From: a bacterium
GTDB lineage: Bacteria > UBP15 > UBA6099 > JAJRTR01
Reading direction: 5' to 3'
Length of the DNA stretch: 12,626 nt
Assembly (NCBI GenBank): GCA_024278215.1
Contig: JAJRTR010000144.1
Span: forward strand, 1-12,626
Notes under the pieces: generated by a model
Told to the model about the DNA's origin: nothing
The model's input: only the letters and a program-made list of their open reading frames with translations
Databases searched by the model: none
Part shown: positions 1,880 through 12,626 of the stretch, in pieces
Numbering within the stretch: position 1 is the first letter of the stretch
Layout of the letters: every line of letters starts with the position of its first letter
Program-made: the position numbers and the translations under genes

Positions 1880-4096
1880 TTACTTCTGCATCTCCTTTCT
1901 AACATTTTTCCTTATAGTGTCAGGATCGTAGCAGGGACCTTCAGTCGGGTCCGGGAAAACGATATCAGAGCCGGTGATGATGGTTGTTCTTTTACCGATC
2001 GGTGCGTCGAGCACTTTCTGTTTGTTGACGTAAACCTCGCAGACGTCGGCCTTCATTTTCAGGTCAATGCGTATGTATCTGACTTTGAGCCCCTGGAGTT
2101 CGAGTTTTTTTACAAAATTCAGTGGCACCGGTTTGATCGAAACATCGCCGCGCATCGAGACTTCGAGTCCGAACACGCCATAGATAATCGCCTGTGCGGC
2201 GGCGGCGCCGGCAATGGTGTTCGACCTGCCCGATTCGTCGAATTCCATTTGATCCGCCCGCACTGCTTCAGGATAATACGGAAACCTGTTACCCCACCAG
2301 AGAATCCGTGTGAGTATATCCTCGCCGAGTTCGGGATATCCCGCCCTGTATAGGTTGGTGATCAGTTCGGGCGCTTCGCCGATAAATGTGCCGGGACCGC
2401 CCCAGGCGATGTCGTCATCGTCGAAACCGGCATCTTTTTTGCTCAGGCTGTGCACTCCGTAAGGATAAAGAAACTCGCTGTCGTTGAGATGCAGAACCAT
2501 TTTATCCGACTGTTCTTTCGACGGAACGCCGGTATCGAGAAGATGATAAATCTGCACCGACCAGACCGTGTGTTTTTCTCCGGCAGGGTCGATGACATCG
2601 TACCAGCCTTTTTCCGGATTCCACATTTTTTCATTTATGAGTTTTTCGAGGAAGTCGGCTTTTTTTCGCAAGATAGCCGCCTCGCTCTCTCTGCGCTGGA
2701 GCAGGTCGAGCATATCCGCCGCAGTGCGGAATATCACGACACGCTCGGCGTTCGGGCTGGGGACAACGTGTTCGTAAGGCGCTTTTCGGACTCCCAGGAG
2801 TTGCTGTGTGTCTCCATAATCCAGGAGTTTCGGCATATCCAGGGTTCTGAGACCGCGATTGGCAATGTCGATGATGTTGTCGATCATCGGCTTGCCCAGA
2901 ACCCGGTCGGTCAGTATTTCCCAGTCGCCTGTGAGCGCCACATAGTCTCTGACGAGTCTGACGATGGCGTAATCGCTGAAGGCGAGCCGTTTGCCAAGAC
3001 CACGCGCCGTAAGCGGGTCGAAAGCGCGGTGCCTGTTTATGTTCATGTTGACGAAATACCTTATCTGTTTTCGCGCCGCGGCGCGGTCCGCCATGATCAT
3101 CAGTGGTCCGACATAAGAATAGTCCCACAACTGCGCCGACATTGCCCTGCCGTCGAGCCCGCTGCCGGCAAAGAAGGGGGTGAAGATGAAAGCGTCGTCG
3201 TTTCCCCAGCGGGCCGCCTTGATAGAGAGCATCGAGTGGTCGAAAAATGTTCTGAGGTTGCGGTTGTTTGTGATAATATGCGGCACCCATTTCGACATCT
3301 CATTGATGTCTATCATGCGCCTTGCACGCGAATCCTTCACGAACACCGCAGGGTCGTCATATTGTGCGAGTAGCGCTTTCGCTTCCTTCTTCTCAGCCAT
3401 AGCGCATATAAAATAGAAATAAACAGATGTTGTCGCCGGCACAATTATTTTTGATTTTAGAATGCCGCTCTCGAAAACAGGGTCCGGTAGTTCGGTCTTG
3501 CAGAATATGCCGCCGTCGGGAACCGTTGCACTGAAGATTTTCTTGTCGCTGTCGAAAGCGGATGTGACAGGCGTTGTAACTTCAGGCCCGTCGAGGTCCC
3601 ATTCGACTGGGTCGGGCTTGCCCATTTTGCCTTTCATCTCGAAACTGAGCTCGAACTCGCGGTCCTTGCCCTCCCTCTCGTAGAACTGGCCCAGCGCGAG
3701 AAAAACCGGCTCCGCGGGTGCAAGCGTGAGAGTTGTTCTCAAGACCACTCCGTAGCTTTCGCTTTGCCTGTCGAAGTCGTTTATCAGCCACGATGTGTAT
3801 ATCGGAATCTTTATCTTTCCGTCCACTTTCATCGTAAATTCGAAATCATTCGTTGCGAGCGGCGGGGAAATCGGATTCCGGAAATTAAGGTTCTCCTTCG
3901 GGTCTGAACCGAGTGTGATGTATCCGTTGAAAACCCTGAGGTGCTTCGAATCGTAAATGTTTTTTTTCTGTGTCATCTGGAAGCAGTCCTGGTTCGGTTT
4001 TGCATCCAGACTGCAAAATCCACTTGCGGATTCAGCAGACAGAAAAAAGACGGAAACGAAAAAAACTGCAATAAAGATGTAATGTATAGTCTTCAT
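1880..4096 (-). CDS. Secreted six-hairpin (alpha/alpha)6 glycosidase-like protein
   Basis: The preferred start at 4096 gives 738 residues. A longer reading frame continues upstream to 4237 into the repeat, but only this ATG puts a clear signal peptide (MKTIHYIFIAVFFVSVFFLS) at the N-terminus. An AGAAGG lies about 13 bases upstream. The mature protein has an N-terminal beta-rich region (about 30-250), then a helical barrel-like region (about 255-645). That region includes FFDHSMLSIKAARWGNDDAF, QLWDYSYVGPLMI (322-334), WSVQIYHLLDTGVP and IAWGGPGTFIGEAPELITNLYR (563-584). A small beta domain ends the chain. The layout resembles trehalase/GH63-type six-hairpin glycosidases. Candidate acidic catalytic residues are D325, E573 and E576, but neither the exact family nor the substrate can be fixed by eye. 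A role in envelope or extracellular polysaccharide breakdown is an inference. Confidence 0.75.
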   Translation of the reverse strand: MKTIHYIFIAVFFVSVFFLSAESASGFCSLDAKPNQDCFQMTQKKNIYDSKHLRVFNGYITLGSDPKENLNFRNPISPPLATNDFEFTMKVDGKIKIPIYTSWLINDFDRQSESYGVVLRTTLTLAPAEPVFLALGQFYEREGKDREFELSFEMKGKMGKPDPVEWDLDGPEVTTPVTSAFDSDKKIFSATVPDGGIFCKTELPDPVFESGILKSKIIVPATTSVYFYFICAMAEKKEAKALLAQYDDPAVFVKDSRARRMIDINEMSKWVPHIITNNRNLRTFFDHSMLSIKAARWGNDDAFIFTPFFAGSGLDGRAMSAQLWDYSYVGPLMIMADRAAARKQIRYFVNMNINRHRAFDPLTARGLGKRLAFSDYAIVRLVRDYVALTGDWEILTDRVLGKPMIDNIIDIANRGLRTLDMPKLLDYGDTQQLLGVRKAPYEHVVPSPNAERVVIFRTAADMLDLLQRRESEAAILRKKADFLEKLINEKMWNPEKGWYDVIDPAGEKHTVWSVQIYHLLDTGVPSKEQSDKMVLHLNDSEFLYPYGVHSLSKKDAGFDDDDIAWGGPGTFIGEAPELITNLYRAGYPELGEDILTRILWWGNRFPYYPEAVRADQMEFDESGRSNTIAGAAAAQAIIYGVFGLEVSMRGDVSIKPVPLNFVKKLELQGLKVRYIRIDLKMKADVCEVYVNKQKVLDAPIGKRTTIITGSDIVFPDPTEGPCYDPDTIRKNVRKEMQK

Positions 4097-5322: not shown

Positions 5323-6303
5323 TCAGCGATTAAGGACACCTTCGGTTATGGTGTCGATGTAATATTTCGAGTATAGCGCTCCGATTGGGTTGTTGGCGAG
5401 GAGTTTGTCTTTGACAAAAAGAGTTGTAACAGGCGCTTCGCTGTATTTCGATAACACCGTGTCGCATCCCACACACAAGCCTGCGGTGATATTCAGTTCG
5501 GTCCCCGCGCTGTTCAGCGCAAGCGCCTGGCCTTTCGGATTGCAGATCAAACCGTTACGGCCTTCAGGTCCGTTTTTTGTCCCGGAGGTATCAGAGCATA
5601 TCCGGCAGCAAACGGAAGTGACTTTGAAGAACCGTCGCAGGATGTTACGCAACAGTTCAGTTTCCTCGAACATATCTATGCAGAATGCGATGCCTACCTT
5701 TCGGAACTCCATTATATGGGCAAAATAGACGACTTCCGCAATGCGGCACATCTTCCGTTCGCTCTCGTGGGCGATATCCAGAGAGAACTCGATACTTTTG
5801 CGGTCAGAGTCGTCGAGCATCGGAGCGGAAAGTGCCGGCATGTAGTTTCCGCAGGGTTCGCCCTTGAGGCAAGTTCGGTTTCGGCATTTCATGCAATCGC
5901 GCCAATGGCCGGTATCGGAGTCCGGCCCTGAAGCGTCTGCGTCGTCGTTACCGGCAGTCTTCTCAGCCTCATCGATATTATAGGTAAGTCCATAACCCTG
6001 CCTGAGTTTCCCTTTAAGGAAAGCCTGCACTATCCTGTCTATCTCACCTGCGACATTGTTTATAACGGATATGCCCCGGGACTCCGCTTGACGTATGAAA
6101 TCCCTGTCCGCGCCGCCGCAGATAAACACATCGACATTCAGGTCCAGCAGTTGCCCCACCCACGCCTCCGGGTCGAATCCGCTGATCACGACAAGTTCCT
6201 TGCTCATGATCATATCATCTGTAATATCAATGACTATCATCCGGTCGGAATAAAAAAATCTTGGTGAAACCCGTGTTCCGAATATGGGAATAGCGGCTTT
6301 CAT
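5323..6303 (-). CDS. NifX/NifB-type cofactor-binding domain fused to DUF1847
   Basis: The ATG at 6303 has GGAGG 6 bases upstream and gives 326 residues. It is preferred over the longer frame to 6333, which would place the start codon upstream of the inferred transcription start. Residues 1-100 (MKAAIPIFGTRVSPRFFYSDRM, then VDVFICGGADRDFI) match the dinitrogenase iron-molybdenum cofactor domain of NifX, NifY and NifB C-termini, which hold Fe-S or metal cofactors. Residues 135-155 form a cysteine knuckle (C137, C140, C145, C151). Residues 168-315 match DUF1847, a putative metal-binding family: EVVYFAHIMEFRKVGIAFCIDM, CNPKGQALALNSAGTELN, GLCVGCDTVLSKYSEAPVTTLFVKD, NPIGALY. The total cysteine content is very high (C186, C208, C232, C233, C236, C254, C277, C280). 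There is no signal peptide, so it is probably cytoplasmic. No nif genes are nearby, so a role in metal/Fe-S handling or redox sensing for the adjacent complex is inferred. Confidence 0.85.
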   Translation of the reverse strand: MKAAIPIFGTRVSPRFFYSDRMIVIDITDDMIMSKELVVISGFDPEAWVGQLLDLNVDVFICGGADRDFIRQAESRGISVINNVAGEIDRIVQAFLKGKLRQGYGLTYNIDEAEKTAGNDDADASGPDSDTGHWRDCMKCRNRTCLKGEPCGNYMPALSAPMLDDSDRKSIEFSLDIAHESERKMCRIAEVVYFAHIMEFRKVGIAFCIDMFEETELLRNILRRFFKVTSVCCRICSDTSGTKNGPEGRNGLICNPKGQALALNSAGTELNITAGLCVGCDTVLSKYSEAPVTTLFVKDKLLANNPIGALYSKYYIDTITEGVLNR

Positions 6304-6328
6304 GCAGTGCCTCCGAACAAAGTTTAAT

Positions 6329-6344
6329 TGCAATAATCATGCCA
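6329..6344 (-). promoter_or_regulatory. Sigma-54 promoter for NifX-DUF1847 gene
   Basis: Read on the minus strand the site is TGGCATGATTATTGCA. It has the invariant GG and GC separated by exactly 10 bases and matches the -24/-12 consensus TGGCAC-N5-TTGCW at all but one position. The inferred start is near 6318, giving a 15-base leader that includes the GGAGG at 6310-6314. Sigma-54 promoters require an AAA+ activator bound upstream. Confidence 0.8.
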
Positions 6345-6466
6345 TGTAAAACGATATACTCCAGCGTATCCTTTCGAGGTGCGTCTCCTGTTATCCGGTG
6401 TCGAGTTTTGCAATGGATTTACCGTTTTCAATACCGAAAATCTATTGATACAGTGATTCAACAAAT

Positions 6467-6514
6467 GTTGCATATCGGCGTTGCATGTTGCAACATGTTG
6501 CAATGTTATGCAAC
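6467..6514. promoter_or_regulatory. GTTGCA box cluster, candidate enhancer (UAS)
   Basis: Four GTTGCA boxes (6467, 6480, 6487, 6497) and one reversed TGCAAC (6509-6514) lie within 48 bp. They form two overlapping perfect palindromes: CATGTTGCAACATG at 6484-6497 and GCAACATGTTGC at 6490-6501. A spaced dyad GTTGCA-N6-TGCAAC follows at 6497-6514. The cluster is about 150-200 bp from the inferred minus start and 175-220 bp from the inferred plus start, the usual enhancer distance for sigma-54 activators. The binding protein is unknown. Confidence 0.65.
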
Positions 6515-6660
6515 AAATATGGCTGCGCTATGATGGTTTTCGAGGAAAACGGAAATCCTCACGAAACAGGTCGACAATCTGTTTGATATAGGTGTTGTCA
6601 GGTAGATTCATAAGTTATTTACCAAATTATTGTCGCTCGGAAAGTGCCGTGCTCACGATT

Positions 6661-6676
6661 TGGCATATATATTGCT
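6661..6676 (+). promoter_or_regulatory. Sigma-54 promoter for the respiratory operon
   Basis: TGGCATATATATTGCT matches TGGCAC-N5-TTGCW at all but one position. GG (6662-6663) and GC (6674-6675) are exactly 10 bases apart. The inferred transcription start is near 6687, giving a 51-base leader before the ATG at 6738. No competing sigma-70 promoter was found in the spacer. Confidence 0.82.
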
Positions 6677-6737
6677 TTTAAATATATTTGCGCAGCATTT
6701 CTGAGCGTATTGCGACAGGAAGGACGGTCGAAAAGAC

Positions 6738-8126
6738 ATGTCGACAGCAACAGAAAAAAGTGAAGGTTCGGTTGCAACGGCACCGAAAAAGACATTTGAT
6801 TTTTATTATATTGAAGGCGGGTTGCCTCGCGGGCGAGCTGTGAAGTTTATCAATGCTTTCGCGGCAGTGCTCAGACATACCAATTACAAGCCGCTTCTTG
6901 ATATGTATTCGAGAAGCACAGCGAAATGCGCAAGGTGTACTGTCATGTGTCCCGTGCATGAAGCGACCGGCGATCCCCGGGATATACCCTGCTATCGTTC
7001 GCAACTCATTCTGGACATCTATAAAAAATACTTCACCGTGGGTGGCTGGTTCAAAACCCGTGTAATGGGTGAAGGGCATATTACAAACGACGACATCGAC
7101 GAACTTGCCGAGTCGGTCTACCGTTGCACAGCCTGCAAACGGTGTTTATTGCAGTGTCCGATGGGTATCGACCATGCACTGGTCACCCACATTGCACGCT
7201 ATGTTCTATCCGAGATCGGCATAGTGCCCAAGGCGCTAAGGGTTGCCACGAGGGAGCAACTCGAGGGCCCCTCGGCGAACACGTCGGCGATTCCCGTTGT
7301 CGCGCTCAGGGACACGCTCGAATTTCTCGAAGAAGAACTCCTCGAGATCACCGGACACGAGATAAAGTTCCCTGTAGATAAGGAAGGTGTGGATTTCGTG
7401 TTTTTCCCGGCAGTCTCCGACTACCTTCTCGAGGCCGAGACGCTTATGGGCAACGCCGCCGTCATGTATGCCACGGGCAACGCCGACAACTGGACTATCG
7501 GCACACAGAACTTCGACGGCATCAACTACGGCCTGTTCTACAGCGACTGGCATCTCGAAAACATCATCAAGAACGTGGTCAAAGAAACGAGAAGGCTTAA
7601 GGGAAAGTGCATCCTGATCGGCGAGTGCGGGCACGCCTCGCGCTCGGCCAAGCAGTTTGTCCCGGTGTTCGGCGGCAAGAACCCGCCTCCGGTCATCAAC
7701 TGCATGGAATTCGCGCTGGACATGATGGAAGAGGGCAAGCTGAAGCTCAATCCCGACATTATTGATAAAAGCGCGACATATCACGACCCCTGCAACATAG
7801 CCCGTTCGGGCTGGATCGTCGAGCAGCCGCGCAAGATTATTAAATCTTTCATCAAGGATTTCGTCGAAATGACTCCCAACGGCGCTGAGAATTATTGTTG
7901 CGGCGGTGGCGGCGGTACCGTATCCATCGACGAGATGCACAAGTTCCGCATGGAGATAGGCGGTCTGAAAAAGGCCGAGCAGATACGCAACGCCGGTACG
8001 GACTATGTCATCGCTCCGTGCGCCAACTGCAAGAAACAACTCGGTGAAATCATCGAATATCACAAACTCGACAGCAAGCTTATCGGTCTTCACGATCTGA
8101 TGCTGAAGGCAATCGAGTTTAAATGA
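6738..8126 (+). CDS. DsrK/TmcB/HdrD-like CCG-domain iron-sulfur protein
   Basis: The 462-residue product is soluble and has no signal peptide. Two cysteine clusters bind [4Fe-4S] centres: C64-x2-C67-x3-C71-P with C85, and C130-x2-C133-x2-C136-x3-C140-P. The C-terminal half carries CCG (cysteine-rich) domains. The second is complete (C352, then Y-CCG at 387-389, then C428-AN-C431), the signature that binds the noncubane [4Fe-4S] site of heterodisulfide reductase. The first (C291, C297, C322) is degenerate, as in DsrK and TmcB. Such subunits form the cytoplasmic arm of membrane complexes linking the quinone pool and periplasmic cytochromes to thiol/disulfide chemistry in sulfate reducers. GGAAGGA lies about 13 bases upstream of the ATG. 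It is the first gene of an operon with the cytochrome b and cytochrome c genes. The natural disulfide or protein partner is unknown. Confidence 0.9.
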   Translation: MSTATEKSEGSVATAPKKTFDFYYIEGGLPRGRAVKFINAFAAVLRHTNYKPLLDMYSRSTAKCARCTVMCPVHEATGDPRDIPCYRSQLILDIYKKYFTVGGWFKTRVMGEGHITNDDIDELAESVYRCTACKRCLLQCPMGIDHALVTHIARYVLSEIGIVPKALRVATREQLEGPSANTSAIPVVALRDTLEFLEEELLEITGHEIKFPVDKEGVDFVFFPAVSDYLLEAETLMGNAAVMYATGNADNWTIGTQNFDGINYGLFYSDWHLENIIKNVVKETRRLKGKCILIGECGHASRSAKQFVPVFGGKNPPPVINCMEFALDMMEEGKLKLNPDIIDKSATYHDPCNIARSGWIVEQPRKIIKSFIKDFVEMTPNGAENYCCGGGGGTVSIDEMHKFRMEIGGLKKAEQIRNAGTDYVIAPCANCKKQLGEIIEYHKLDSKLIGLHDLMLKAIEFK

Positions 8127-8231: not shown

Positions 8232-8240
8232 AAAGAGGTG
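8232..8240 (+). promoter_or_regulatory. Ribosome binding site deciding the cytochrome b start
   Basis: AAAGAGGTG matches the anti-Shine-Dalgarno complement AAGGAGGTG at eight of nine positions. It covers the in-frame GTG at 8238, so that GTG cannot be the start if this is the ribosome site. The TTG at 8247 (spacing 6) or 8250 (spacing 9) fits instead. Confidence 0.6.
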
Positions 8241-8246
8241 GCGGAT

Positions 8247-9005
8247 TTGTTGACAGACTGGTTGGGTTTCGCGAGGGGGCCGCTGTTTATCATGTGCTTC
8301 CTGTTCATGTTGCTGGGACTACTCAGGCTGGTGGTTCTCGAACTTATCGGCTTTAAAAACGCTTACGCTAAAATCGAAGACAAAGATTTCCTGATATTCT
8401 CTCCACCCGAACAGACGGGAGATATCAGGGATAAGAAGTTCATCTCGAAAACATGGCTTGCGGGCATTATGGAATGGCTGATACCGGTTCGGCACATTTA
8501 TAAGAGCAAACCGTTCTTCAGCATTGTGTCGATTATATTTCACATAGCGATTATAGTGACTCCGATATTCCTGATGCAGCACATACTTCTGTGGAAGCGG
8601 GGCGTGGGGGTCGGCTGGCCGGGTCTGCCGGGGCATCTGGCGGATGTGCTTACGGTTGTGGCGCTTGCCTCGATTATCATTCTTTTTCTTTACCGGCTTA
8701 CGGATAAAGACGCGCGTGTCCTGAGTGGCACGGGCGACTATCTGCTGCTCGCGCTGATATTCGTGATATTCGGGACGGGGCTTCTGGCCGCGCACCCGGC
8801 TATGAGCCCTGTAAACTACAGTCTCACCATGTTGATTCATGTTCTCGCGGGCAATCTTTCTTTTGTTCTCCTGCCTCTGAGCAAGCTGGCGCATGTTGTC
8901 CTCTTCCCGTTCAACAGGGTTTCCTCGGACTTCTTCTGGAGACTGCCTCCGGGCATGGGAGATAAAGTCGCGCACGAACTTCATGGCGAGGAGGCGAAAG
9001 TGTGA
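8247..9005 (+). CDS. NarI/TmcC/DsrM-like cytochrome b membrane subunit
   Basis: With a TTG start at 8247 the product has 252 residues. The first in-frame GTG, at 8238, would give 255. There are five hydrophobic helices at about 12-35, 91-114, 131-150, 165-182 and 191-222. Histidines placed for two b hemes are H99 and H112 in helix 2 and H198 and H216 in helix 5. The 18-residue spacing of the last pair equals that of NarI. A long cytoplasmic loop (about 36-88) lies between helices 1 and 2. Proteins of this type (nitrate reductase gamma family, including DsrM and TmcC) exchange electrons with menaquinone and pass them between a periplasmic cytochrome and a cytoplasmic CCG subunit, which matches both neighbours. 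The spacer from the Fe-S gene is about 120 bp with a hairpin and no clear promoter. Confidence 0.87.
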   Translation: MLTDWLGFARGPLFIMCFLFMLLGLLRLVVLELIGFKNAYAKIEDKDFLIFSPPEQTGDIRDKKFISKTWLAGIMEWLIPVRHIYKSKPFFSIVSIIFHIAIIVTPIFLMQHILLWKRGVGVGWPGLPGHLADVLTVVALASIIILFLYRLTDKDARVLSGTGDYLLLALIFVIFGTGLLAAHPAMSPVNYSLTMLIHVLAGNLSFVLLPLSKLAHVVLFPFNRVSSDFFWRLPPGMGDKVAHELHGEEAKV

Positions 9006-9077: not shown

Positions 9078-10013
9078 ATGAAAAGTTTTCACAATAAAAA
9101 TATACTTGCCGTCGTTTCAGCCGTTATCGTTTCCATAGCCTGCGGCGGCGCGGCGCGCGCGCAGAGTCTGACGGATTTTCTGAACTCGGACACGCCGAAA
9201 AATGTCGCATACTTGAACTTTACATTTGTCTTTCTCGGGGTCATCACGCTGATACTCATAGCGGCGGCAATTCTTGAGATCGTTTTCTCGATCAGGCGCG
9301 ACACGCAGGCCGGCGGCCTGATGCTTACAGATGACGACATCGAACCGGGGCAATCGCTCGTTTCAATGCTGTTCGGCGACACCGGCGTGCGTCTCAGTAT
9401 GCTCGCTGTGTTTATTGTTGTTCTTATCACGGGCATGGTAGTAACCGCCGATTCGATCGACAATGCTGTTGTCGAACATAATGACAGGGTGGACTCCCCG
9501 ATAGGGCTTACTGCGAACAGGGCGGTCCTGCGCATCGACGGCGACAGGAATGGCCTGTATGTGGATTTCAAACACGATATGCACAAAAAGATGCTGGGCG
9601 GAGTAAACTCGTGCGACACCTGCCATCACCTGCACAGCCCCACAGATAAAACAATGCAATGCTGGAAGTGCCACTCGCTGATGCACAATTCGTCTTCGAT
9701 ATTCGACCACTCGCTGCACGAAAAGGCGCTGGGCGGCAACACAGCCTGCGATAAGTGCCATAAACAGGGTGTGCCCAAAACCCGTGAAAGCGCGAAGCCA
9801 TGCGCGGAATGCCATGCGGCCAATATGAATATGGATGCCGAACTCGACAACAACGGGCGTTTCGATTTCCACGCGATGTCTTATGAGAACGCCATGCACA
9901 CACTGTGCGTCGGATGTCACAAGAGCCGCGCCGAACAGGTTGGCCGGCCCGCGCTCGGCAACTGCAATACCTGCCACCCGAACATCGAACCGCCCGGTTC
10001 AACCTTGAAGTAA
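9078..10013 (+). CDS. Membrane-anchored hexaheme cytochrome c (class III-like)
   Basis: The ATG follows GGAGG by 8 bases and the product has 311 residues. An N-terminal signal or anchor (1-28, ending ARA before QS) is followed by helices at about 45-70 and 103-124. SIRR after the second helix stays inside, so the C-terminal domain faces the periplasm. Six CxxCH heme sites are seen at 179, 195, 224, 242, 277 and 296. Histidines for bis-His ligation occur in the FKHDMH and FDHSLH blocks. The two blocks VDFKHDMHKKMLGG and SIFDHSLHEKALGG, each followed by CDxCH, show internal duplication of a two-heme unit, and a third, weaker unit starts at FDFHAM. Class III cytochromes accept electrons from periplasmic hydrogenases or formate dehydrogenases. 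TmcA of Desulfovibrio has four hemes and is soluble, so this subunit is larger and anchored. It is the third gene of the operon. Confidence 0.9.
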   Translation: MKSFHNKNILAVVSAVIVSIACGGAARAQSLTDFLNSDTPKNVAYLNFTFVFLGVITLILIAAAILEIVFSIRRDTQAGGLMLTDDDIEPGQSLVSMLFGDTGVRLSMLAVFIVVLITGMVVTADSIDNAVVEHNDRVDSPIGLTANRAVLRIDGDRNGLYVDFKHDMHKKMLGGVNSCDTCHHLHSPTDKTMQCWKCHSLMHNSSSIFDHSLHEKALGGNTACDKCHKQGVPKTRESAKPCAECHAANMNMDAELDNNGRFDFHAMSYENAMHTLCVGCHKSRAEQVGRPALGNCNTCHPNIEPPGSTLK

Positions 10014-10083: not shown

Positions 10084-10527
10084 ATGAGTGGCGGCGATGT
10101 GTTGAAAAAAAACAAAATTATGGTGGTCGACGACGAGCAGGACATCGTCGATTATCTTTCGATCTTTCTTGATGATAATGATTACCAAGTGGCGAGTGCG
10201 ACAGACACAGACGAAGTGATGCCGCTTGTCGAGAAGTTCAAACCGGATCTTATGCTTCTTGATATTGTCATGCCGAAGAAAACGGGATTTGCCATTTATA
10301 AGGGATTGAAGGAAGACCCCTGTTTCAGCGATATGCCGATACTTATCGTCAGTGCCTTCAGCAAAACACGGGATTTTCCACAGGTGGAATTCGACCGGAT
10401 GATAAAAGAAAACAACTTGCCCCGGCCGGGCGGCTACGTCGAGAAACCCATCGACCGCAAGCGGCTTTTAGAACTGATAAAGTCTCAACTCGGAGAGAAC
10501 GATCGTAATGTCGACAATGGACATTAA
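10084..10527 (+). CDS. Single-domain response regulator
   Basis: The 147-residue product is one receiver domain with the acidic pair D16-D17, phosphoacceptor D60 (LLDIVMPKKTG), switch residue S90 and K121 in YVEKP. There is no DNA-binding or enzymatic output domain. S90 to K121 spans 31 residues against about 22 in CheY, so there is an insertion of about 9 residues (KTRDFPQVEFDRMIKENN region) in the alpha4-beta5 face used for partner contacts. The gene follows the cytochrome c gene by 70 bp in the same direction with no clear promoter, so co-transcription is likely. GAGGGA lies about 11 bases before the ATG. Its end overlaps the kinase gene by 20 bp. It probably relays phosphate to or from that kinase. 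Confidence 0.87.
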   Translation: MSGGDVLKKNKIMVVDDEQDIVDYLSIFLDDNDYQVASATDTDEVMPLVEKFKPDLMLLDIVMPKKTGFAIYKGLKEDPCFSDMPILIVSAFSKTRDFPQVEFDRMIKENNLPRPGGYVEKPIDRKRLLELIKSQLGENDRNVDNGH

Positions 10528-12334
10528 AGAGGTCAGAGAGTGGGTTTGCAGCGAACTCTACGAGCAGATGCCCGTGAGTGTCGCGGTAATCGACTCCGAC
10601 TTCAAAATCGTCGATGCAAACAATACGTTCGTGCAGACATTCGGCGAAATGAAAGGCAGAAGTTGCCACGAAGCAATAAAACGGAGCCGGTTGTACTGCG
10701 AAGAATGTGAGGCCGGCAAGACTTTTGTTGATGGCAAAGTACGCATAAATAAAGTCAGCGGTATCGACCGCTTTGGAAATAAGATCAGTTACCTCATACA
10801 TCTCTTTCCTCTCGTCGCCGAGGACGGCAGCATACCCTACATCATCGAGATGGCCGCCGACTCGACACTCATTGACGAATTGCAGGAAAGATACGAACTT
10901 CTTTTCGACAAGACGCCCTGTTATATATGTATCATCGACAGGCAGTTCCAGGTGATACAGACAAACCGGAAGTTCCGCGACACATTCGGCGAGCCCGGCG
11001 GCCGCTACTGCCACCAGGTCTACAAGCAGAGCCCGAATATATGCGAAGAATGTCCCGCCGTCAGGGTATTCCAGACTGGCGCCGAGCACTCTACACGACA
11101 ACGCGGTGTAGACGTTCACGGCAACACAACTTATTACATGGTCACCGCCGCGCCTCTTATAAAAGGACCGGACGGTACCGTCGAGACGGTCATGGAAATC
11201 GCGTTCGACGTTTCCCGCATCGTCGAACTCGAAGAACAGATAAAAGAGCTGTTCGACATTCAGGAGTTTGTCATCGCAAGTTCGATGGACGCCCTTATAG
11301 TTACAGACTTCAAGGACAGGATAATAATATTCAACAGGTCCGCGGAAAAACTTTTCGGTTATTCGGCGATGGACGTTATCGGCAAACGTGGTTTCTTCAA
11401 CGAGATTCTGCCCGGTGAATTCACGGGGTTGCTGAAAGACAACGGCGGCCCGAAACAGATTCGGGAAACAACAATAAAAAACAGGGACGGCGAGTCGATT
11501 CCTGTCAGGATATCAGGGAGCTGCCTGTCGAGCGAAGACAAGTTCCTCGGCCATGCCGCGTTTTTGCAGGATTTAAGAAAGATCAAACAGCTCGAGGACG
11601 AGAAACTAAGCGCCGAGCGGCTTGCGGCTGTAGGCCAGACCGTTGCGGGCCTGGCACACGGCATAAAAAACATCATCACAGGGCTCGAAGGCGGTCTCTA
11701 TGTGATGAAAACAGGTATGCGCAAGAGTGATGTCGAGACCATCGGCAAGGGCCTCACTATGCTCGACAGCAACATCCGGCGCATATCACACTTCGTCAGG
11801 GAGTTCCTCAGTTTCGCGCGGGGCAAAGTTCCTGAAGTCGATATGACAGAACCTGTAAGTATCGCTGCCGAGGTTTTCGAGTTGTACAAATACGCCGCGC
11901 AGCAGGAAGGCATCGAGATCGTTACCGATTTCCAGGACGGTGTACCGCCTGCGCCTATGGATCGGGAAGCAATCCATACGTGCATTTCCAACCTCGTGTC
12001 AAATGCGATCGACGCTTGCCAGATGAGCGACAAAGATAGTAAAGTAATTACCATAAGGGCATACGAAGAGAATGAAACAATAATATATGAAGTCTCGGAT
12101 AACGGGATCGGGATGGATTATGACGTTAAAAAGAAGGTGTTCACAAGTTTCTTCAGCACCAAGGGGTCACATCAGGGGACAGGACTCGGGCTTCTGCTCA
12201 CTAAAAAGACGGTGCAGGAACACGGCGGGCAGGTAAGACTGGATTCGGAACCTGAAGAAGGCGCGACCTTCCGACTCGAGTTTCCACGAAACCGGCTGCC
12301 GAAACCCGGTGGAGAGGAACATGTCGACAGTTAG
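10508..12334 (+). CDS. Triple-PAS histidine kinase with duplicated cysteine motifs
   Basis: The 608-residue protein is soluble, with no membrane helices. Three PAS domains lie at about 17-120, 127-243 and 250-362. A HisKA dimerisation region follows with H384 in GLAHGIKN, then a HATPase_c domain with N-box NLVSNAIDA (495-503), G1 DNGIG (531-535) and G2 GTGLGL (557-562). PAS1 and PAS2 each carry the same cysteine pattern: C53-H54 then C64-EE-C67, and C168-H169 then C179-EE-C182, with identical spacing. PAS3 lacks it. Such CH-x9-CxxC clusters could bind metal or an Fe-S centre or form disulfides, suggesting cytoplasmic redox sensing. The start at 10508 follows GGAGAG by 10 bases; ATG 10517 is an alternative. 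The kinase sits between two receiver genes and overlaps the first. Confidence 0.9.
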   Translation: MSTMDIKEVREWVCSELYEQMPVSVAVIDSDFKIVDANNTFVQTFGEMKGRSCHEAIKRSRLYCEECEAGKTFVDGKVRINKVSGIDRFGNKISYLIHLFPLVAEDGSIPYIIEMAADSTLIDELQERYELLFDKTPCYICIIDRQFQVIQTNRKFRDTFGEPGGRYCHQVYKQSPNICEECPAVRVFQTGAEHSTRQRGVDVHGNTTYYMVTAAPLIKGPDGTVETVMEIAFDVSRIVELEEQIKELFDIQEFVIASSMDALIVTDFKDRIIIFNRSAEKLFGYSAMDVIGKRGFFNEILPGEFTGLLKDNGGPKQIRETTIKNRDGESIPVRISGSCLSSEDKFLGHAAFLQDLRKIKQLEDEKLSAERLAAVGQTVAGLAHGIKNIITGLEGGLYVMKTGMRKSDVETIGKGLTMLDSNIRRISHFVREFLSFARGKVPEVDMTEPVSIAAEVFELYKYAAQQEGIEIVTDFQDGVPPAPMDREAIHTCISNLVSNAIDACQMSDKDSKVITIRAYEENETIIYEVSDNGIGMDYDVKKKVFTSFFSTKGSHQGTGLGLLLTKKTVQEHGGQVRLDSEPEEGATFRLEFPRNRLPKPGGEEHVDS

Positions 12335-12371
12335 GCGACGGCTCAATACATATCAGAAAAGGAGTTTGCCA

Positions 12372-12626
12372 ATGGAAGGACATCTCAACAAAACAATACT
12401 CGTAGTGGACGACGAACCTGACGTGCGAACATTTTTTGAAACGGCCCTTAAGGATGCCGGTTTCACTGTTGTGACGGCAGGCGATGGGGAGGCCGCCCGG
12501 AAGGCACTTGATGAGAGAAAGCCCGACCTGGTTTCCCTGGACCTTGTCATGCCGAAAAAGTCGGGCGTGAAACTATACCATGAGATCAGGCGCGATAAGG
12601 AGTTGAGAAAGATTCCGGTGATAGTC
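12372..12626 (+). CDS. Response regulator, N-terminal part (cut by window end)
   Basis: The visible 85 residues are the first part of a receiver domain: acidic pair D13-D14, phosphoacceptor D57 in SLDLVMPKKSG, and the start of beta4 (KIPVIV) at the window edge. AGGAG lies 7 bases before the ATG, and the gene begins 37 bp after the kinase stop. Whether an output domain follows cannot be seen. The likeness to the receiver at 10084 around VMPKK(S/T)G suggests duplication. If the full protein carries an AAA+ and Fis domain, it would be a candidate activator for the sigma-54 promoters upstream. If it is a lone receiver, it is probably a relay protein. Confidence 0.88.
   Translation, partial: MEGHLNKTILVVDDEPDVRTFFETALKDAGFTVVTAGDGEAARKALDERKPDLVSLDLVMPKKSGVKLYHEIRRDKELRKIPVIV

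Follow-up and report, generated by a model that had tools for sequence, protein, structure and literature searches.

The window, namely the whole stretch of DNA analysed here, is a complete contig (C120) of 12626 bases from a draft genome of 4.55 Mb. Two gene units diverge in it from a 434-bp spacer at 6304-6737. On the minus strand, the gene at 5323-6303 (ATG at 6303) encodes a protein of 326 amino acids combining a NifX/ORP domain with DUF1847 (PF08901, E 2e-34; PF02579, E 6e-5, the latter below the cut-off). The NifX part weakly matches the C-terminal domain of MrpORP (E 2e-8, 33.8 of 450, below the cut-off), and our literature search found no paper on DUF1847. On the plus strand lies a TmcB-like operon, which begins with an Fe–S/CCG-domain subunit of an Hmc/Tmc/DsrK-like complex (6738-8126, 462 amino acids), assigned from profile matches that all score under the NCBIfam curated cut-offs (DsrK 274/400, TmcB 202/735, HmcF 192/750). 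It is followed by a TmcC/HmcE-like membrane subunit (8238-9005, plus strand; TmcC 119 bits for a cut-off of 240) and by a class III-type multihaem cytochrome c with an N-terminal hydrophobic stretch (9078-10013, plus strand). A receiver, PAS kinase, receiver set comes after the cytochrome gene on the same strand (10084-12626), and a similar set follows the TmcB operon of one of the loci compared below (L115). It consists of a single-domain response regulator (10084-10527), nearest to the DVU0259 family although below its cut-off, and a PAS histidine kinase (10508-12334), both probably in the same operon, and of a second receiver-domain protein (12309-12626) cut off by the contig end.

The spacer contains two sigma-54 core promoters facing outwards: TGGCATGATTATTGCA at 6329-6344 on the minus strand for the NifX–DUF1847 gene, and TGGCATATATATTGCT at 6661-6676 on the plus strand for the TmcB-like operon. 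The initial annotation had proposed these as near-consensus -24/-12 elements with GG-N10-GC spacing; their positions and spacing are confirmed, and the predicted transcription starts lie near 6318 and 6687, respectively. With a simple score based on the consensus TGGCAC-N5-TTGC, which like the boundaries of the spacer and the choice of 6-mers is our own, the two cores reach 16.9 and 17.3 (maximum 17.3). Dinucleotide shuffles of the spacer equalled the core score in 2/1000 cases for the plus core and in 0/1000 for the minus core. Scores at this level occur about four times per Mb in a 247-kb sample of the genome, and the pattern TTGGCAYN5TTGCW has just four occurrences in the 4.55 Mb. An rpoN gene, without which the proposal could not stand, was found in the genome (PF00309, E 1.3e-12, above the cut-off). 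Separately, TTGGCATCTATATTGCT, which is almost the plus core of the window, is present at C199:19757-19773 on the minus strand (L074), where it precedes an outer-membrane-type gene and an apparent ammonium transporter gene and has GCAACAAT/ATTGTTGC arms upstream.

Between the two cores, at 6466-6515, lies a putative enhancer (UAS) cluster of six GTTGCA/TGCAAC half-sites, assigned from enrichment, palindromes and conservation. The half-sites (positions 6467, 6480, 6487, 6489, 6497 and 6509) span 6467-6514, with six copies in 48 bases against 0.48 expected in the spacer, a number reached by one in 1000 shuffles. As noted initially, they form perfect palindromes, of which there are three, nested or adjacent: GTTGCA-N3-TGCAAC at 6480-6494, TTGCAACATGTTGCAA at 6488-6503 and TGTTGCA-N6-TGCAACA at 6496-6515. 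The pattern TGTTGCA-N3-9-TGCAACA occurs once genome-wide, in this spacer. A genome-wide search for further GTTGCA clusters near sigma-54 promoters, as the initial annotation had suggested, gave none with a strong core adjacent: the GTTGCA..TGCAAC pairs found elsewhere are single pairs, none of them flanked by a strong sigma-54 core. The box is indeed unlike the NifA consensus, as TGT-N10-ACA is absent from the spacer and is found in the window only at 3428 and 5460, within genes. Nor is the box string printed in the Desulfovibrio and Clostridiales sigma-54 papers.

We compared the spacer with those of seven loci from five other genomes that carry a related Fe–S gene (TmcB/DsrK-like; TmcB identity to the window 52-63%). 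An initial search gave L002 and L003, and searches centred on those two genomes gave further loci. L111 (contig C582) and L112 (contig C505, which is the L002 contig) are two copies of the locus within a single genome, L113 and L115 come from another, and L114, L116 and L003 complete the set. All of these genomes are drafts and none is a near relative, the searches by family, order, class and phylum having yielded few genomes; as the seven loci were picked by their target gene, they do not form a random sample. GTTGCA/TGCAAC is the top over-represented 6-mer in the seven spacers when the window is left out of the ranking (17 against 2.2 expected, 0/1000 shuffles) and is found in each of them, with a density over the eight spacers of 7.7 per kb compared with 0.39 per kb in the remainder of the same loci. 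The full layout, consisting of the NifX–DUF1847 gene, an outward core, the boxes, a second outward core and the TmcB-like Fe–S gene, is kept in L111, L112 and L113, and L003, L115 and L116 have the boxes together with one core. Measured from box to plus -24 element, the distance is 150-192 bp for the window and 69-123 bp for L003, L115 and L116; in the three loci with the full layout it is 128-205 bp once an outlying box in L113 is set aside. L114 is the exception, in that the only GTTGCA of its spacer overlaps the promoter and no cluster lies further upstream. In a global alignment the box regions match poorly, since the half-sites are spaced differently from locus to locus, and the L003 spacer additionally carries TGAAAC/GTTTCA repeats. 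In L114, a small HTH_17/MerR-like protein gene (1809-2234, Pfam match) separates the sigma-54 promoter from the TmcB-like gene; a similar gene, judged by eye, occupies the same place in L116 (about 9365-9810).

In L003, a gene for a PAS–AAA+–Fis activator lies directly upstream of a NifX-like gene and TmcB. The same activator family adjoins TmcB in six of the seven loci (L003, L111, L113, L114, L115 and L116), its members being 46-59% identical to the L003 protein. The TmcB proteins of L111 and L112 are 81% identical, and in the stretches read an activator gene stands beside just one of these two copies. At the TmcB loci of G001, the stretches read show no linked member of this activator family, and the spacer is devoid of a box cluster and of clear sigma-54 cores. 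The window contig encodes no sigma-54 activator either, so the linked AAA+/Fis regulator looked for on the strength of the initial annotation is missing here, although it is present at six other loci and has a homologue elsewhere in the genome, at G000:C194:1235-2695 (minus strand). This candidate, next to a CheW-like gene, has a PAS domain at its N terminus and the AAA+ and Fis HTH domains of a bEBP (PF00158, E 2.6e-61; PF02954, E 1.2e-14; loop GAFTDA). It is the top match in its own genome of all six linked activators (for L111, 60% identity and 561 bits, compared with 337 for the runner-up). In a maximum-likelihood tree it nests within their clade with support of 100/98, beside L111 and L113, both of which have the layout of the window, and it is the sole member of the clade in its genome. 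All seven clade members share the GAFTDA loop, three PAS-domain cysteines (C-x9-C-x3-C) and a similar HTH recognition helix. The C194 protein scores under the curated equivalog cut-offs of PrdR (the best, 359.7/795), NifA (308/529), NtrC (298/559) and AtoC. As its gene is on a separate contig, its pairing with the window rests on homology. GTGTTGCATTGTGTTGCCA is located at L053:2591-2609, near the start of the candidate activator ORF; were translation to begin at the later ATG, this sequence would precede the gene and might point to self-control.

It could be argued that sigma-54 control and the enhancer boxes are correctly identified, but that another of the roughly 15 AAA+ activators of the genome binds them, since the genome is rich in such proteins, none of them encoded on the window contig, and closely related PAS activators exist (L011 and L013). 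We consider this improbable: the C194 protein is alone among them in belonging to the clade linked to a TmcB-like target elsewhere, and L011 and L013 carry GAFTGA and differing HTH helices. A bEBP on C26, with a near-perfect sigma-54 core and TTGCA boxes adjacent to it, was also considered; it is outside the linked clade and was rejected because its boxes are part of a dispersed repeat, present also on C33. This repeat, with TTGCAAAATT and GAGCCAATTGCAAAATT arms, spans L049:8147-8235 on C26 and L072:1530-1720 on C33, with a near-perfect sigma-54 core beside each copy.

We propose that the spacer controls two divergent units through sigma-54 and that the one-component C194 activator would bind it at the central GTTGCA/TGCAAC cluster. 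From there, by the DNA looping and ATP-driven opening established for bEBPs, it would reach the sigma-54 polymerase about 130-190 bp away on each side and open both outward promoters, so that the NifX/ORP–DUF1847 gene and the TmcB–TmcC–cytochrome c operon would be induced together. That both promoters are driven by the C194 activator, bound to the GTTGCA boxes, seems to us very likely from the sequence comparisons, while its binding to these boxes in the window genome itself and the joint firing of the two promoters are what we infer from them. The idea, already put forward in the initial annotation, that a single AAA+ activator governs both sigma-54 promoters gains support from the conserved cores and boxes and from the linked activator family, with co-ordinate activation as its predicted consequence. 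There is little chance, in our judgement, that just one of the promoters works with sigma-54 and that the other is used by sigma-70 or matches by accident. The plus core does double as a sigma-70 pattern (TTGGCA-N17-TATATT, 10/12) and the minus core has a weak sigma-70 match; yet sigma-70 matches are at about chance level (3 against 1.8), both cores are rare by the shuffles and both recur in L111, L112 and L113, where the gene pair is the same. It is very improbable that the palindromes, instead of forming a bEBP enhancer, are bound by a repressor or by some unrelated factor, or belong to a structural or mobile repeat: palindromic clusters fit many regulators and a dispersed repeat with TTGCAAAAT arms exists elsewhere in the genome, but the window cluster is unique in it and the boxes recur in distant genomes beside sigma-54 cores and a bEBP gene.

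If the C194 protein activates both promoters, what began as a promoter reading in one spacer becomes a testable regulon with a defined box, a defined activator clade and two defined target units, which occur in several genomes that are only distantly related and mostly uncultured. The sigma-54 logic is in itself ordinary. Shared control, on the other hand, ties the ORP/NifX–DUF1847 protein to a small respiratory complex and therefore offers a functional clue for both. The PAS cysteines may sense redox or carry an Fe–S cluster. We can go further, tentatively and with somewhat more doubt than confidence, and suggest a previously undescribed regulon, conserved across distant bacteria, in which the three-cysteine PAS–bEBP clade recognises GTTGCA half-sites, senses the state of redox or Fe–S and induces together a distinct Tmc/DsrK-like respiratory complex and the ORP–DUF1847 metal-cluster protein, the latter possibly assembling cofactors of the complex or feeding back on the sensor.

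By layout and activator traits, the nearest described system is that of the orp operons of Desulfovibrio vulgaris, where divergent sigma-54 operons enclose palindromic DVU2106 sites, with IHF sites between enhancer and cores (PMC3897727). The window has the same arrangement of paired divergent operons, with the activator palindromes inside and the sigma-54 sites outside. The two systems also have in common a one-component activator with a GAFTDA loop, which is that of DVU2106 (OrpR; PMC4641369, Table 1), and a target with an ORP/NifX-type domain, MrpORP being the product of one orp operon (PMC6345978). The activator, which the initial annotation thought might be undescribed, now has a specific candidate; because this shares with OrpR its one-component build, its loop, the divergent operons and the ORP/NifX-domain target, it is not wholly without precedent. 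The targets differ, however: an ORP–DUF1847 protein and a Tmc/Hmc-like complex in the window, compared with Mrp/MinD-type ORP proteins, and the orp set (Orp3, Orp4, Orp5, Orp8 and MrpORP) is absent from the window apart from the weak match to the MrpORP C-terminal domain. The regulator is encoded at the locus in orp and is unlinked in the window genome. Whereas IHF sites have been shown for orp, the window has two candidates with one mismatch each, at 6450 (minus strand) and 6620 (plus strand), about the number expected by chance (2 against 1.0).

The Ohc system is a second parallel, in which an Hmc/Tmc-type complex is predicted by comparative genomics to be under sigma-54 control with DVU3142, encoded divergently from the operon (PMC4641369). 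Here too a single-component bEBP and a sigma-54 promoter are associated with a small redox complex of cytochrome c, Fe–S and haem b type. DVU3142 carries GAFTGA, in contrast to GAFTDA here, no NifX–DUF1847 partner is described for it, and its motif is published as a figure logo. With the Tmc, Hmc and DsrK complexes, the window operon shares a CCG-type Fe–S subunit, a haem-type subunit in the membrane and a multihaem cytochrome c, then response regulator and kinase genes, although every score lies beneath the curated cut-off (DsrK, TmcB, HmcF and TmcC). The type of control is known from orp/DVU2106 and Ohc/DVU3142, and the box, the targets and the regulator family look new within the literature covered here.
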